A stretch of DNA of 64,000 nucleotides from Sipunculus nudus (Eukaryota; Annelida; Sipuncula; Golfingiida; Sipunculidae). Positions 9,374 to 55,559 of this stretch are shown here, in pieces (positions within the stretch are counted from its first letter, which is position 1; every line of letters starts with the position of its first letter). The position numbers and the translations under genes are program-made. Under the pieces are notes generated by a model. It did not search any database, was not told where the DNA came from, and saw only the letters and a list, made by a program, of their open reading frames with translations. The stretch spans positions 18,593,019 through 18,657,018 of the forward strand of contig CM049306.1 in NCBI GenBank assembly GCA_026874595.1, read 5' to 3'.

Positions 9374-10167
9374 TTTTAATGATTCGTGGACGCTTGGCTT
9401 GTAACAAAAATACATTTTTGGTTCACGGATTTGACATCGGCTGGTCAAACTGTCACCACAATGCCTCTTCAGTCAAGGGTGAATGGGTATAGGCCATAGT
9501 GGCGCAAATGTAGAATAAATACACATACACAAAATATCCTCATACGTATCCTTAAATATACGTACACGCGGCTTAAAGCTGCGTGTCCACTTGTACGGAT
9601 GCGGTGCGTGTTCGGTGCGGATACGTATGCGGATATTTTGTGTATGTGTGTCCATAAGATACGTTTGTCAGTGCGTTTTTAGGTCTTTCACTCTCTTTCA
9701 CCTCTACAAAATGGCACTTTCCGCATGCGTTTCTGCATGCGTTTCCGTACCCGCGGCTACATGGTCCGGTTTTTAATGATTCGTGGACGCTTGGCTTGTA
9801 ACAAAAATACATTTTTGGTTCAAGGATTTGACATCGGCTGGTCAAACTGTCACCACAATGCCTCTTCAGTCAAGGGTGAACGGGTATAGGCCATAGTGGC
9901 GCAAATGTAGAATAAATACACATACACAAAATATCCTCATACGTATCCTTAAATATACGTACACGCGGCTTAAAGCTGCGTGTCCACTTGTACGGATGCG
10001 GTGCGTGTTCGGTGCGGATACGTATGCGGATATTTTGTGTATGTGTGTCCATAAGATACGTTTGTCAGTGCGTTTTTAGGTCTTTCACTCTCTTTCACCT
10101 CTACAAAATGGCACTTTCCGCATGCGTTTCTGCATGCGTTTCCGTACCCGCGGCTACATGGTCCGGT
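9374..10167. repeat. 397 bp tandem duplication (9374-9770 and 9771-10167)
   Basis: The second unit restarts at 9771 with TTTTAATGATTCGTGGACGC. The offset is exactly 397 bp and the copies are almost identical (I noticed only single-base differences such as GGTTCACGG versus GGTTCAAGG), so the event is recent. Each unit contains the left part of the MITE at 9974 and a hairpin: arms 9521-9551 and 9619-9650 in the first unit are imperfect inverted copies (CATACGTATCC against GGATACGTATG). Confidence 0.93.
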
Positions 10168-10304
10168 TTTCCAAAAACGTATCCGTTTCCGCACGCCGCA
10201 CGCACTCCGCACCGCGTAAGTGGACACACTCCTTCTTTATTCCATATGCGCGATTTAAAACGCGTCCGCATCCGTATCCGTACCGCATAAGTGGACACGG
10301 AGCT
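9974..10304. mobile_element. MITE with TAA flanks (PIF/Harbinger-like by flank length)
   Basis: About 331 bp bounded by TAA at 9971-9973 and 10305-10307. The left end begins AGCTGCGTGTCCACTT. The reverse complement of the right end begins AGCTCCGTGTCCACTT, followed in both by GC-rich GGATGCGG-type sequence. A second end-like segment (GTAAGTGGACACACTCC, near 10217-10233) lies inside, which suggests nested or duplicated ends. There is no transposase. The TAA flank fits PIF/Harbinger; TTAA (piggyBac/Kolobok) cannot be excluded because the left flank reads TTAA. A left-half copy starts at 9577 in the upstream 397 bp unit. Confidence 0.7.
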
Positions 10305-10413
10305 TAAGTCATAGGCTGCCCACACGACTTTGGCTTAATCTATGACCCGTATACAATGTTACGGGGTGACATAAAAGCGGACCGAACTGTTTCGCTAGTG
10401 AAGCATGCTTTTC

Positions 10414-10466
10414 TAGCGAAGCGGTTGGAATGCCGGACATGTGCGCCACCGACATAGGTTCGAATC
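10414..10466 (+). promoter_or_regulatory. tRNA-like A box/B box pair in the first LTR
   Basis: TAGCGAAGCGG at 10414 fits the Pol III A-box consensus TRGCNNAGYNGG apart from length, and GGTTCGAATC at 10457-10466 fits the B-box core GGTTCRANTC. Spacing is tRNA-like. Whether it drives transcription is inference. Confidence 0.6.
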
Positions 10467-10803
10467 ACGAATCGGCCCAAACCTTTCCCCTGCGTAATTT
10501 GTCTTTGTAACAAATTAGGGCTCGTCCAAAATGACTCCAAGATTTGTGGCCCGGGAATGGTGGTTTGAAGTAATTGAGTAATTACCGCCACCAAGTTCAC
10601 CAAAAGTGTGACTCTTTGGAAGTTTATACCAGAACGCTCATAAGAGGGGGTATGTTACGGGGTGACATAAAAGCGGACCGAACTAGTGAAACATGCTTTT
10701 CTAACGAAGCGGTTTGAATGCCGGACATGTGCGCCACCGACATGGGTTCGAATCTCGGACATAAAAGCGGACCGAAATGTCTCGCTAGTGAAGCTTGCTT
10801 TTC

Positions 10804-10856
10804 TAGCGAAGCGGTTGGAACGCCGGACATGTGCGCCACCGACATGGGTTCGAATC
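10804..10856 (+). promoter_or_regulatory. tRNA-like A box/B box pair in the middle (hybrid) LTR
   Basis: TAGCGAAGCGG at 10804-10814 and GGTTCGAATC at 10847-10856. The region can be drawn with a short D stem (GCG/CGC) and a wobble-containing T arm around TTCGAAT. The third LTR keeps diverged versions (TAACGAAGCGG, GGTTCAAATC at 11139-11148). Confidence 0.62.
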
Positions 10857-10905
10857 TCGGATCGGCCCGATATTTTCCCCTGAGCAATTTGTCTTCATAA
10901 CAAAA

Positions 10906-10918
10906 TGGGGGCTCGTCC
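10906..10918 (+). other. Primer binding site, proline-tRNA type
   Basis: TGGGGGCTCGTCC directly downstream of an LTR end plus AAA. The first internal region has a decayed version, TAGGGCTCGTCC at 10516-10527. Confidence 0.8.
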
Positions 10919-11429
10919 AAAACGTGTGCCTGGGGAATGGTGGTTTGAAGTAATTAGAAAATTACCGCAACATAGTTCACCAAAATGTGACTCCTGGGAT
11001 AGTCTTGTTCTGAGAGCAGAACGCTCTTAAGAGGGGTGTGTTACGGGGTGACATAAAAGCGGACCGAACTGTCTCGCTAGTGAAGCATGCTTTTCTAACG
11101 AAGCGGTTTGAATGCTGGACATGTGCCCCACCGACATTGGTTCAAATCTCGGATCGGCCCAAACTTTCCCCTGCGCAATTTGTCTTTGTAACAACAAGGA
11201 AAGAGGTACCATTGTGCACTTATAGGTGTGACAAGCATGATGTGACAATGCCTTGAATGATATGTAATATATATTTATATAATATATGAATGTAGATTCC
11301 CCAGTTTGTGAACCCAGTGAATCCCCAGTTTCCTGTGGGAAGATACCTTACCTGACTGAGGGAACAGGGGCGGCCTTGTTTGAAATGGGTTGCTAAGGAC
11401 GGGGAGGGGGTAGGGGTACCGGGCAGCGT

Positions 11430-40047: not shown

Positions 40048-43000
40048 GTATTATAGTCCCTCATACCCTACAATATCATAGTCCCTGATACATTACAATA
40101 TCATAGTCCCTGATACCTCACAATATTAGAGTCCCTCATACCTTACAATATTAGAGTGCCTCATACCCTACAATATTATATTCCCTCATACCTTACAATA
40201 TTTCGGTCCCTAATACATTACAATGTTATAGTCCCTTATACCTTACAATATTAAAGTCCCTTATACCTAACAATATTACGGTCCCTCATACCTTACAATA
40301 TAAAAGTCCCTCATACCTTACAATTTTATAGTCCCTCATACCTTACAATATTATAGTCCCTCATACCTTACAATATTATAGTCCCTCATACCTTACAATA
40401 TTATAGTCTCTCATACCTTACAAAATTATAGTCCCTTATACCTTACAATATAATAGTCCCTCATACCTTACAATATTACATTCCTTATACCTTACAATAT
40501 TACAGTCCCTGACACCTTACAATATAACACTCCCTGACACCTTACAATATTACAGTCCCTTATACCTTACAATATAACAGTCCTTATACCTTACAATATT
40601 ATAGTCACTGATACCTTACAATATTAGAGTCCCTCATACCTTACAATATTATAGTCCCTTATACCTTACAATATAATAGTCCCTCATACCTTACAATATT
40701 ACATTCCTTATACCTTACAATATTACAGTCCCTGACACCTTACAATATAACACTCCCTGTCACCTTACAATATTACAGTCCCTTATACCTTACAATATAA
40801 CAGTCCTTATACCTTACAATATTATAGTCCCTTATACCTTACAATATAACAGTCCCTTAGACCTTACAATATAACAGTCCCTGACACCTTACAATATTAC
40901 AGTCCCTTCAACCTTACAATATTACAGTCCCTGATACCTTACAATATTATAGTCCCTGATACCTTACAAAATTACAGTCCCTTATACCTTACAATATTAT
41001 AGTCCCTGACACCTTACAATATTATAGTCCCTTATACCTAACAATATTACGGTCCCGCATACCTTACAATATAATAGTCCCTTATACCTTACAATTTTAT
41101 AGTCCCTCATACCTTACAATATTATAGTCCCTCATACCTTACAATATTAGAGTCCCTCAAACCTTACAATATTAGAGTCCCTCATACCGTACAATATTAG
41201 AGTCCCTTATGCCCTACAATATTATAGTCCCTCATACCTTACAATATTACGGTCCCTAATACATTACAATGTTGTAGTCCCTTATACCTTACAATAATAC
41301 AGTCCCTGATACCTTCCAATATTACAGTCCCTGAAACCTTACAATATTACAGTCCCTCATACCTTAAAATATGACAGTCCCTAATACCTTACAATAGTAT
41401 AGTCCCTGACAGCTTACAATATTATAGTCCCTGATACGTTGCAATATTACAGTCCCTGATACCTTACAATATTATAGTCCCTGATACCTTACAATATTAG
41501 AGTCCCTGATACCTTACAATATTATAGTCCCTCATACCTTACAGTCCCTGATACCTTAAAATATTATAGTCCCGGATACCTTACAATATTACAGTTCCTG
41601 ATACCTTACAATGTTATAGCCCTGATACCTTACAACATTATAGTCTCTTATACCTTACAATATTATAGTCCCTGATACCTTACAATATTAGAGTCCCTGA
41701 TACCTTACAATATTAGAGTCCCTCATACCTTACAATATTAGAGTCCCTTATGCCCTACAATATTATAGTCCCTCATACCTTACAATATTACGATCCCTAA
41801 TACATTACAATGTTATAGTCCCTTATACCTTACAATAATACAGTCCCTGATACCTTCCAATATTACAGTCCCTGAAACCTTACAATATTACAGTCCCTGA
41901 TACCTTAAAATATTACAGTCCCTTATACCTTACAATAGTATAGTCCCTGACAGCTTACAATATTATAGTCCCTGATACGTTGCAATATTACAGTCCCTGA
42001 TACCTTACAATATTATAGTCCCTGATACCTTACAATATTATAGTCCCTGATACCTTACAATATTATAGTCCCTAATACCTTACAATATTATAGTCCCTGA
42101 TACTATACAATATTAGAGTCCCTGATACCTTACAATATTATAGTCCCTTATACCTTACAGTCCCTGATACCTTAAAATATTATAGTCCCGGATACCTTAC
42201 AATATAACAGTTCCTGATACCTTACAATGTTATAGCCCTGATACCTTACAACATTATAGTCTCTTATACCTTACAATATTACAGTCCCTGATACCTTCCA
42301 ATATTACAGTCCCTGAAACCTTACAATATTACAGTCCCTGATACCTTAAAATATTACAGTCCCTTATACCTTACAATAGTATAGTCCCTGACAGCTTACA
42401 ATATTATAGTCCCTGATACGTTGCAATATTACAGTCCCTGATACCTTAAAATATTACAGTCCCTCATACCTTACAATGGTATAGTCCCTGACAGCTTACA
42501 ATATTATAGTCCCTGATACGTTGCAATATTACAGTCCCTGATACCTTACAATATTATAGTCCCTGATACCTTACAATATTATAGTCCCTGATACCTTACA
42601 ATATTATAATCCCTAATACCTTACAATATTATAGTTCCTGATACTATACAATATTAGAGTCCCTGATACCTTACAATATTATAGTCCCTTATACCTTACA
42701 GTCCCTGATACCTTAAAATATTATAGTCCCGGATACCTTACAATATTACAGTTCCTGATACCTTACATTGTTATAGCCCTGATACCTTACAACTTTATAG
42801 TCTCTTATACCATACAATATGACAGTCCCTGATACCTTACAATATTATAGTCCCTGATACCTAACAATATTATAGTCCCTGATACCTTACAATATTATAG
42901 TCCCTTATACCTTACAATATTACAGTCCCTTATACCTAACAAAATATTAGTCCCTTATACCTTACAATATCATAGTCCCTCATACCTTACAATATTATAG

Positions 43001-45795
43001 TCTCTCATACCTTACAATATTATAGTCCCTTATACCGTACAATATTATAGTCCCTCATACCTTACAATATTACATTCCTTATACCTTACAATATTACAGT
43101 CCCTGACACCTTACAATATAACACTCCCTGACACCTTACAATTGTACAGTCCCTTATACTTTACAATATAACAGTCCGTTAGACCTTACAATATTACAGT
43201 CCCTGATACCTTACAATATTACAGTCCCTGATACCTTACAATATTAGAGTCCATCATACCTTACAATATTATAGTCCCTCATACCTTACAATATTATAGT
43301 CTCTCATACCCTACAATATTATAGTCCCTGACACCTTACAATATTACAGTCCCTGACACCTTACAATATTACAGTCCCTTATACCTTACAATATAACAGT
43401 CCCTAATACCTTACAATATTACATTCCTTATACCTTACAATATTACAGTCCCTGGCACCTAAAAATATTACAGTCCCTGACACCTTACAATATTACAGTC
43501 CCTGATACCTTACAATATTACAGTCTCTGATACCTTACAATATTAGAGTCCATCATACCTTACAATATTATAGTCCCTCATACCTTACAATATTATAGTC
43601 TCTCATACCCTACAATATTATAGTCCCTGACACCTTACAATATTACAGTCCCTGACACCTTACAATATTACAGTCCCTTATACCTTACAATATAACAGTC
43701 CCTAATACCTTACAATATTACATTCCTTATACCTTACAATATTACAGTCCCTGGCACCTAAAAATATTACAGTCCCTGACACCTTACAATATTACAGTCC
43801 CTGATACCTTACAATATTACAGTCCCTGATACCTTACAATATCATAATCCCTCATACCTTACAATATTATTGTCTCTCATACCTTACAATATTATAGTCC
43901 CTTATACCTTACAATATTATAGTCCCTCATACCTTACAATATTACATTCCTTATACCTTACAATATTACAGTCCCTGACACCTTACAATATAACACTCCC
44001 TGACACCTTACAATTGTACAGTCCCTTATACTTTACAATATAACAGTCCGTTAGACCTTACAATATTACAGTCCCTGATACCTTACAATATTACAGTCCC
44101 TGATACCTTACAATATTAGAGTCCATTATACCTTACAATATTATAGTCCCTCATACCTTACAATATTATAGTCTCTCATACCCTACAATATTATAGTCCC
44201 TGACACCTTACAATATTACAGTCCCTGACACCTTACAATATTACAGTCCCTTATACCTTACAATATAACAGTCCCTAATACCTTACAATATTACATTCCT
44301 TATACCTTACAATATTACAGTCCCTGGCACCTAAAAATATTACAGTCCCTGACACATTACAATATTACAGTCCCTGATACCTTACAATATTACAGTCCCT
44401 GATACCTTACAATATAAGAGTCCATCATACCTTACAATATTATAGTCCCTCATACCTTACAATATTATAGTCTCTCATACCCTACAATATTATAGTCCCT
44501 GACACCTTACAATATTACAGTCCCTGACACCTTACAATATTACAGTCCCTTATACCTTACAATATAACAGTCCCTAATACCTTACAATATTACATTCCTT
44601 ATACCTTACAATATTACAGTCCCTGGCACCTAAAAATATTACAGTCCCTGACACCTTACAATATTACAGTCCCTGATACCTTACAATATTACAGTCCCTG
44701 ATACCTTACAATATCATAATCCCTCATACCTTACAATATTATTGTCTCTCATACCTTACAATATTATAGTCCCTTATACCTTACAATATTATAGTCCCTC
44801 ATACCTTACAATATTACATTCCTTATACCTTACAATATTACAGTCCCTGACACCTTACAATATAACACTCCCTGACACCTTACAATTGTACAGTCCCTTC
44901 TACCTTACAATATAACAGTCCGTTAGACCTTACAATATTACAGTCCCTGATACCTTACAATATTACAGTCCCTGATACCTTACAATATTAGAGTCCCTCA
45001 TACCTTACAATATTATAGTCCCTCATACCTCACAATATTATAGTCTCTCATACCCTACAATATTATAGTCCCTGACATCTTACAATATTACAATCCCTTA
45101 TACCTTACAATATAACCGTCCCTAATACCTTACAATATTACATTCCTTATACCTTACAATATTACAGTCCCTGGCACCTAAAAATATTACAGTCCCTGAC
45201 ACCTTACAATATTATAGTCCCTGATACCTTACAAAATTAAAGTCCCTGATACCTTACAATATTATAGTCCCTAATACCTTACAACATTATTGTCCCTGAT
45301 ACCTTACAATATTAGAGTCCCTGATACCTTACAATATTATAGTCCCTTATACCTTACAATATTAAAGTCCCTGATACCTTACAATATTATAGACCCGGAT
45401 ACCTTACAATATTACAGTCCATGATACCTTACAATGTTATAGTCCTTGATACCTTACAATATTAGAGTCCCTAATACCTTACAATATTATAGTCCCTGAT
45501 ACCTTACATTATTATAGTCCCTTATACCTTACAATATTACAGTCCCTTATACCTAACAAAATATTAGTCCCTTATACCTTACAATATCAAAGTCCCTTAT
45601 ACCTTACAATATTAGAGTCCCTGATATCTTACAATATTATTGTCCCTGATACCTTACAATATTATATACCCTGATACCTTACAATATTAGAGTCCCTTAT
45701 ACCTTACAATATTAGAGTCCCTGATACCTTACAATATTATAGTCCCTTATACCTTACAATATTACAGTCCCTGATACCTTACAATATAACATAAC
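40048..45795. repeat. Satellite array of about 25 bp units with higher-order structure
   Basis: About 5.7 kb (around 230 units) of a 25 bp monomer: AGTCCCT, one variable base or two, then ATACCTTACAATATTA. Many units are 24 or 25 bp. Variants (AGTCCATCAT, GGCACCTAAAA, CATTCCTTATACC, CACTCCCTGACACC) recur at fixed distances. The TACATTCCTT variant starts at 43071, 43943 and 44815, exactly 872 bp apart, and GAGTCC variants at 43247, 44119 and 44991 repeat that spacing. A 299 bp sub-block is duplicated inside each 872 bp unit (43247/43546, 44119/44418). In the first half, 541 bp (41211/41752) and 223 bp (40451/40674) blocks recur. Stops occur in all frames, so it is not coding. Confidence 0.97.
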
Positions 45796-54450: not shown

Positions 54451-54676
54451 TTTAGTTTCAAATATCCCAAATTTAGTTTCAATTAAACGGGGAATTTAAT
54501 CAATAGGAAATAGGGAATATTTGGGACAATTGACTTGCAGTTAAATGATTTTGGTACCTATAGTTTAGTTTCAAATATCCAAAATTTAGTTTCAATTAAA
54601 CGGGGAATTTAATCAATAGGAAATAGGGAATATTTGGGACAATTGACTTGCAGTTAAATGATTTTGGTACCTATAT
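54451..54676. repeat. 113 bp tandem duplication, two near-identical copies
   Basis: TTTAGTTTCAAATATCC starts at 54451 and 54564. The following bases are almost identical through TTTTGGTACCTATA, so the duplication is young. Confidence 0.95.
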
Positions 54677-54727
54677 AGTTGATCGCCCCTTTCACGGGAA
54701 TGTCCATTAAAATACACATATTTAAAT

Positions 54728-55159
54728 TGTTACGAAGTCATATTGTTGAGGGGGAAAATTCTGAGCAGATCCGAGAGTCGAACCAAGGTGGGTGGCGCAC
54801 AAGTCCGGCGAACCAACCGCTTCGCTAGCAAAGCAAACTTCCCTAGCGAGACAATTCGGTCCGCTTTTATGTCACCCCGTAACACACCCCCTCTTAAGAG
54901 CGTTCTGCTATCAGAACAAGTCTAGTTATCCCAGGAGTCACACTTTGGTGAGCTTATTTCCTGGGCCACAAAGTAAACCGTCACGTTAGACGAGCCCCCA
55001 TTTTGTAACGAAGACAAATTGTTGAGGGGAAAATCCTAGGCCGATCCTGGTTTCGAATCCAGGTAGGTGACGTACAAGTCCGGCGTCCCAACCGCTTCGC
55101 CAGCAAAGCAAGCTTCACTAGCGAGACAGTTCGGTCCGCTTTTATGTCACCCCGTAACA
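54728..55159 (-). mobile_element. Complete TRIM-type miniature LTR retrotransposon, 432 bp
   Basis: Two LTRs, 55004-55159 (5' LTR on the minus strand, 156 bp) and 54728-54884 (3' LTR, 157 bp), enclose a 119 bp internal region. AAAT at 54724-54727 and 55160-55163 is a 4 bp target duplication. The primer binding site TGGGGGCTCGTC (minus strand of 54989-55000) lies 3 nt inside the 5' LTR. The polypurine tract AAGAGGGGGTG (minus strand of 54885-54895) abuts the 3' LTR. Internal sequence also conserved in the 10.4 kb copy includes GTGACTCCTGGGATA, a perfect hairpin GTTCTG/CAGAAC, and the palindrome CTCTTAAGAG next to the polypurine tract. There is no protein-coding capacity. This is the best-preserved copy and defines the family. 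Confidence 0.92.
54774..54827 (-). promoter_or_regulatory. tRNA-like A box/B box in the 3' LTR
   Basis: On the minus strand, A-box-like TAGCGAAGCGG (54817-54827) precedes B-box GGTTCGACTC (54774-54783). A 4 bp D stem (GCGA/TCGC) with a GG-containing loop can be drawn. The other LTR has a T-arm-like hairpin CCTGG/CCAGG around ATTCGAA at about 55050-55066. Confidence 0.62.
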
Positions 55160-55559
55160 AAATATACATTAAAATCTATTGTGTCGAAGTCGAAGGAACA
55201 AAAGGCAGTTTCGTTACAGCGACTTTTAGCTGGCGCGGAGTTGGGCCACGCCATAAAATGTTGCAATACGGACTCTGGGGGCCAAACTATGAAGGGAACG
55301 GGCGAGACAAAATACGTATTTTTGCTTTCCGAAATCTCTGATTTTCATAAGCAGGTCGGTCAGTTGCGTATGTCTGTTTGTGTGTTTGTTTGTCCGTACT
55401 TTCCTGGCCACAAATTTGTAGTAGTCGATCTGAAATTTACATTTCAGATTTATTTGAGTTGATTGAAATCCAAAAGTCGTGGAAGCCTAATGTTTTTGGT
55501 TAGTCAAAGTCAAAGGTCAAGGTCATAAAAAAGTCAAAATTTTATTTTCGTCATAACTT

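Follow-up and report, generated by a model that had tools for sequence, protein, structure and literature searches.

A Helenus-type miniature LTR element in the genome of Sipunculus nudus and its likely Gypsy partner

The window analysed here, a stretch of 64,000 nucleotides from the genome of Sipunculus nudus, contains a short repeat that has the ends of an LTR retrotransposon and, within each of these ends, promoter boxes of the tRNA type. This raises the questions of what kind of element it is, how it would be transcribed and whose enzymes would copy and insert it. The original prediction of a miniature LTR element in the window is confirmed, and its features are as follows:

54728..55159, minus strand: Helenus-type TRIM, copy 1, 432 bp, LTR-internal-LTR
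55004..55159, minus strand: 5' LTR in the sense of the element, 156 bp
54728..54884, minus strand: 3' LTR in the sense of the element, 157 bp, 85.4% identical to the 5' LTR
54885..55003, minus strand: internal region, 119 bp, non-coding
54989..55000, minus strand: primer binding site TGGGGGCTCGTC, 12-nt match to the tRNA-Pro 3' end, 3 nt from the LTR
54885..54895, minus strand: polypurine tract AAGAGGGGGTG at the end of the interior, the commonest form among the sampled copies
54724..54727, no strand: 4-bp target site duplication AAAT, one side, exact
55160..55163, no strand: 4-bp target site duplication AAAT, other side, exact
55092..55102, minus strand: A box of the 5' LTR, 0 mismatches
55049..55059, minus strand: B box of the 5' LTR, 1 mismatch, start 43 nt past the A box start
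54817..54827, minus strand: A box of the 3' LTR, 0 mismatches
54774..54784, minus strand: B box of the 3' LTR, 1 mismatch
55030..55033, minus strand: TTTT run past the B box, predicted Pol III terminator (T4 here in 83/93 sampled LTRs)
55139..55146, minus strand: TATA-like CATAAAAG, LTR positions 14-21, start 44 nt upstream of the A box start

Most of what had been read from this locus was recovered, including the paired LTRs of 156-157 bp with TG...CA termini, the AAAT duplication on both sides, the polypurine tract at the other LTR, an interior without coding capacity, and A- and B-box matches at tRNA spacing in each LTR, both pairs of which were returned by our box scan. The proline-type primer site does lie 3 nt from the LTR, as had been claimed, but its exact match in copy 1 is 12 nt rather than 13 nt, counted against the 3'-end letters of tRNA-Pro. 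The orientation is also corrected here, since copy 1 reads on the minus strand, so that the LTR at 55004-55159 is the 5' LTR. With two LTRs, a length below about 1 kb and no coding capacity, copy 1 is a TRIM. The identity between its LTRs makes it the second most diverged among the 31 pairs that were measured (range 84.5-97.4%), and this copy is therefore probably old.

A blastn search with the LTRs against the window identified a second copy, overlooked in the original reading, which has two interiors and three LTRs, the middle LTR having its core duplicated:

10357..11193, plus strand: second element copy, tandem LTR-internal-LTR (core duplicated)-internal-LTR
10353-10356 and 11194-11197, no strand: ACAA flanks of the second copy, the same 4 bp on both sides

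In one of the interiors of this copy, the match to the tRNA-Pro 3' end is 13 nt long. Several other repeats were observed in the window. A 397-bp unit is present in two tandem copies that are 99% alike at positions 9374-10170, just upstream of the second copy, and a 113-bp unit occurs twice, also 99% alike, at positions 54451-54675, close to copy 1. A satellite array of 5.7 kb with about 231 copies of a 25-bp unit covers positions 40049-45791, and a reverse transcriptase fragment at positions 22749-23186 matches RVT_1 at 2.2e-6, just under the curated cut-off.

Related copies are dispersed across the 1.43-Gb genome. Two samples of these were taken as the best matches to two queries, with a bias toward the best matches and no random draw: sample A, from the best 40 of 2,874 first-look candidates, comprises 41 distinct places (all 55 matches, which fall at 40 places, plus the second copy in the window; L001 and L041 were left out as the same places as W1 and L007), and sample B, from the best 40 of 3,672, comprises 30 loci. 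Exact 4-bp duplications flank the element at 30 of the 41 best-match places in sample A, as compared to 43 of 1640 mismatched flank pairs (2.6%), and at 14 of the 30 best-match places in sample B. For the two samples combined without repeats (L042 and L057, both inside the 14/30 of sample B, were left out as the same places as W2 and L044, while L031 and L039, which have similar 5' flanks and may be one duplicated insertion, were kept), the count is 42/69, or 28/48 where the flanks contain no TA run. TA runs of at least 4 units were found at 12/69 insertion sites, as compared to 86/5269 background positions. Because exact 4-bp duplications flank 42 of the 69 sampled places, we conclude that the element integrates as an LTR element and not as a SINE, which agrees with the retrovirus-like integration originally proposed. 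Copies that mostly lack the interior and the duplications had been named as the mark of a plain SINE; the sampled copies, which were retrieved with a query that includes the interior, retain it. Among the 74 sampled interiors with a recognisable primer site, the tRNA-Pro match is only 12-13 nt in 53 (13/57 and 6/36 interiors without a recognisable site were left out of this count). The exact LTR-start pattern gave no matches in viral contigs or in prokaryote genome contigs, and a DNA search of phages returned no match to the element.

TRIMs with tRNA-like LTRs were named Helenus (TRIMp3) by Kojima (2024; PMC10886601), whose text reports 51 bivalve families, and the earlier statement that no equivalent is established in molluscs is thereby overturned; taken as a whole, the original interpretation is partly supported. 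Our element fits the Helenus kind by structure, the published families being compared by description only. Common to both are the TRIM size, LTRs with A and B boxes at tRNA spacing, the primer site and the purine tract, as well as the 4-bp target duplications that are described for Helenus in animals (PMC10886601). According to the same text, tRNA-Pro is among the primers of the bivalve families and is also the primer type of Gypsy-13_CGi, and tandem arrays were reported for one zebrafish family. A difference is seen in the A box, which starts with TRGCG here as compared to TRGCY in most Helenus families (PMC10886601), such that the fifth base is G and not Y. Helenus was described there from sequence only, Pol III transcription is unproven in that text, and the partners of the animal families were inferred from the likeness of primer sites (PMC10886601). 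In the open-access papers searched, no further research paper on Helenus was found beyond Kojima (2024), the one other item being a meeting report.

We also compared the element to two other TRIMs. Cassandra of plants has, according to the text of PMC7215508, a Pol III promoter and terminator in its LTRs, an LTR structure and tandem arrays, as predicted or seen here, but it is derived from 5S rRNA, whereas the boxes here are of the tRNA type. According to PMC10886601, transcription of Cassandra by Pol III has been demonstrated. The biv-TRIM of bivalve molluscs (Satovic, 2019; PMC6934838) is about 500 bp long and also occurs in tandem forms, but its repeats are 202-218 bp, its interior is 77-80 bp and, as described in that text, it has no clear primer site. 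Membership in biv-TRIM was ruled out by the contrast between LTRs of 156/157 bp with AAGAGGGGGTG and repeats of 202-218 bp with a GGGGAGA tract; a term search of the text of that paper found no mention of Pol III or of A and B boxes (PMC6934838).

To locate promoter boxes, both strands of the window were scanned with at most one mismatch per box and with A and B starts 33-64 nt apart. In total, five A+B pairs were identified in the 64 kb, every one of which is located inside the LTRs of the two copies, namely in both LTRs of copy 1 and in three of the four LTR cores of copy 2, while the last LTR of copy 2 (11039-11193) falls outside the limits of the scan. By chance, 0.017 pairs are expected per window, with a maximum of one in 60 order-1 Markov simulations. 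Lack of conservation of the boxes in other copies had been named as evidence against the original prediction. Among 93 near-full sampled LTRs (partial LTRs below the length limits were left out of all LTR counts), the A box (TRGCNNAGYGG) is exact in 72, the B box (GGTTCGANNCC) in 57 and both in 43, and in 40 of these 43 the spacing from A to B is 43 nt. Both the box consensus and the 43-nt spacing are as in tRNA genes. At the level of elements, 30 of the 41 in sample A have both boxes exact in at least one LTR. In the sampled copies, the original prediction thus withstood both of the checks that had been named for it, on the interior with its duplications and on the boxes.

A recognisable tRNA in the LTR was ruled out: ARAGORN identified no tRNA anywhere in the window, the Rfam tRNA model did not come up for either element, and for the box region of copy 2 the predicted fold was no better than those of its shuffles (z +1.34). 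Since neither ARAGORN nor Rfam finds a tRNA, the LTR has promoter boxes at tRNA spacing with no recognisable tRNA. To judge from these motifs, it looks like a tRNA-type gene promoter minus the tRNA, as Kojima (2024) concluded for Helenus, and Pol III transcription from this predicted promoter is plausible.

The alternative that deserves most attention is an ordinary TRIM transcribed by Pol II, in which the tRNA-like boxes were left behind by a former SINE or tRNA insertion and no longer have a function. The TATA-like CATAAAAG, exact in 72/93 sampled LTRs, is suited to this explanation, although its position would suit initiation by Pol III as well as by Pol II. So is the conserved TTTT run past the B box, which would end many Pol III transcripts from the 5' LTR before the primer site. 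Column conservation in the sampled copies is also barely higher in the A and B boxes (0.930-0.967) than elsewhere in the LTR (0.924-0.930), and the two free B-box positions reach 0.939 in sample B. In sample A, however, these free positions vary (0.731) while the fixed positions stay (0.954), and samples A and B differ at 8/156 columns, one of them a free B-box position, while the A box, the T4 run and the fixed positions of the B box show no such difference. This pattern from sample to sample fits a constraint on the boxes but is not significant by rough arithmetic. A Pol II origin of the transcript is further opposed by the fraction of LTRs in which both boxes are at consensus with the spacing of 43 nt, and by a poly(A) signal (AATAAA/ATTAAA) in just 5 of the 93 sampled LTRs. 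Overall, we regard transcription by Pol II with relic boxes as unlikely.

A candidate for the machinery was found through the primer site. In its full 18-nt form, the proline primer site has 529 occurrences genome-wide, as compared to 0 for the reversed control. The first 30 of these places were sorted manually, such that 14 were located after a Helenus LTR, 10 after another repeat, a Gypsy element, two were hybrids (L077, L081) and four were neither; the 18-nt site in the Gypsy places is a given, as the places were selected by that pattern. The difference between the Gypsy places, at 18 nt, and most sampled Helenus interiors, at 12-13 nt, counts against a partnership of the two. Nine Helenus copies with the 18-nt site were aligned with 28 sites of 12-13 nt, and among these L074/L075 are identical neighbours and L088/L089 a close pair, while the rest aligned poorly. 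The Gypsy LTR is roughly 0.8 kb long, starts with TGTTACAGG and ends with CCGTAACA, with the terminal TGTTAC/GTAACA common to the Gypsy and Helenus LTRs, and TA runs were present at three of the five Gypsy LTR starts that were examined. Pieces of the Gypsy Gag match the SCAN domain (PF02023) at 1.2e-8 and, below the cut-off, at 8e-5, and in one copy (L102) the integrase H2C2 domain at 965-1465 is located upstream of the reverse transcriptase at 1623-2999. Gmr1-like Gypsy elements are described in the texts of PMC3587641 and PMC3424704 as having the integrase before the reverse transcriptase, and the SCAN domain as derived from Gag. By its domain order and SCAN-like Gag, as read in one copy, the partner would thus be assigned to the Gmr1-like Gypsy elements.

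Copies that join the two families were searched for with a hybrid pattern consisting of the Helenus LTR end, the 18-nt primer site and the start of the Gypsy leader. This pattern has 12 exact matches in the genome at 10 places, as compared to 76 for the pure Gypsy form, 65 for the pure Helenus form (18-nt site plus GACGG leader) and 0 for the reversed control. The ten places were each read in part, and the Gypsy leader was found to align past the primer site in nine of them (79-96% identity per aligned piece), while merely about 42 bp are shared with the Gypsy leader in L081. Six hybrid places have the exact Helenus spacer AAA before the site and the Gypsy leader directly after its 18th base, and the switch is therefore located inside the 18 shared nucleotides. 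Seven of the ten (L104-L110; L108 has a variant spacer) have no Gypsy-type spacer before the primer site. The remaining three (L077, L081, L103) have a Gypsy-like spacer there, which suggests that they switch a few bases upstream of the site; the position of the switch is partly preselected, in that the pattern itself fixes the primer site and the leader. The most complete of these copies is the hybrid L106/L113 on chromosome C8, read at its ends only, whose two ends are a Helenus LTR and a Gypsy LTR (79.9% identical), with ATAC on both sides of the whole unit, a 4-bp match with a chance of about 2.6% by the mismatched-flank control. In two places, L108 and L110, tandem units of Helenus LTR (a piece of the 3' LTR in L110), primer site and Gypsy leader were observed, which are miniature elements with a borrowed interior.

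We consider it probable that the miniature is a Helenus-type non-autonomous element that is transcribed from the predicted Pol III promoter in its LTR, and is packaged, reverse transcribed and inserted by the Gmr1-like Gypsy of the same genome. The transcript would begin in the 5' LTR, shortly before the A box, and would end in the 3' LTR at its TTTT run. These positions would give an R region of about 85 nt, and Pol III would have to read through the TTTT run of the 5' LTR. Inside the Gypsy particles, minus-strand synthesis would begin from tRNA-Pro annealed to the primer site that both families have in common, and the TGTTAC...GTAACA ends would be inserted into the target by the integrase of the Gypsy. 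In the second strand transfer of LTR elements, the strand that carries the new LTR and the primer site anneals to the minus strand at the complement of that site. If a Helenus strand annealed to a Gypsy minus strand in this way, the product would have its 5' LTR from Helenus and its interior and 3' LTR from Gypsy, and the ends of the C8 copy match this expectation. Such a pairing would in turn imply that the two elements share a particle and that the integrase accepts ends of either kind. We tentatively suggest, at somewhat less than an even chance, that the Pol III-transcribed miniature shares particles with the Gmr1-like Gypsy, and that the common tRNA-Pro site lets the strand with LTR and primer site hop onto the Gypsy minus strand, by which LTRs are swapped.

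The hybrids could instead have arisen by recombination at the DNA level, or by nested insertion of old copies, with no exchange of templates in a shared particle, in which case the partner would be left unnamed. Both families are repetitive and decayed, the two tandem places L108 and L110 are rearranged, and at two of the three hybrids that were probed about 5 kb downstream, where the 3' LTR is expected, no Gypsy match was found. Such an origin would, however, have to account for the switch inside the 18 shared bases at seven of the ten places, selected by pattern as they are, and for the unlike LTRs of the C8 hybrid within a 4-bp duplication around the whole unit. Nor was a single founder seen: when hybrid LTRs were compared to 141 ordinary and 7 other hybrid LTRs, the nearest neighbour was an ordinary Helenus LTR in six of the eight tested (L105 and L110, with partial LTRs, were left out), which argues weakly against one hybrid founder, as the odds of 141 to 7 favour that outcome. 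A DNA-level origin is in our assessment improbable. A plain tRNA-derived SINE spread by a LINE, with its LTR appearance due to chance or to secondary tandem arrangement, would have the A and B boxes at tRNA spacing, the small non-coding unit and the tandem copies, but was rejected on the integration pattern (exact 4-bp duplications at 30/41 and 42/69 places) and has practically no standing, given that most sampled copies show TG...CA ends, a primer site after a 3-nt spacer, a purine tract and exact duplications, and that there are hybrids with the Gypsy at the primer site.

A pair with hybrid elements is also known from rice, namely Dasheng and RIRE2. Dasheng is a non-autonomous LTR element with RIRE2 as its autonomous partner, as proposed here for the miniature and Gypsy, but the LTRs of the rice pair are alike (PMC1940013), whereas the Helenus and Gypsy LTRs are of unequal length, and in the hybrids compared no match to the Helenus LTR was obtained with the Gypsy LTR as query. 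New here is the likely Gypsy partner of Helenus, with the same primer site and with hybrid copies; hybrids are not mentioned in the text of the Helenus paper, as judged by a term search (PMC10886601). Through hybrids that combine LTRs of both parents, a likely partner for a Helenus of animals can be proposed from nothing but the genome sequence. If particles are shared and the strand hop occurs, Pol III and Pol II elements would swap LTRs, such that Gypsy copies gain a 5' LTR of the Pol III type and the miniature gains new interiors, of which L108 would be an example. The hybrids also make it possible to test in a single species whether a Pol III transcript can serve as the genome of an LTR element.

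Two further arrangements were observed at the primer site in other copies. L079 and L080 have the end of the primer site joined to LTR sequence from past the B box, which results in repeated LTR 3' ends with no interior. In L084, L085 and L090, the box region of the LTR comes after the primer site in reverse-complement orientation, as though a switch in synthesis had occurred at the T-arm of the tRNA primer.
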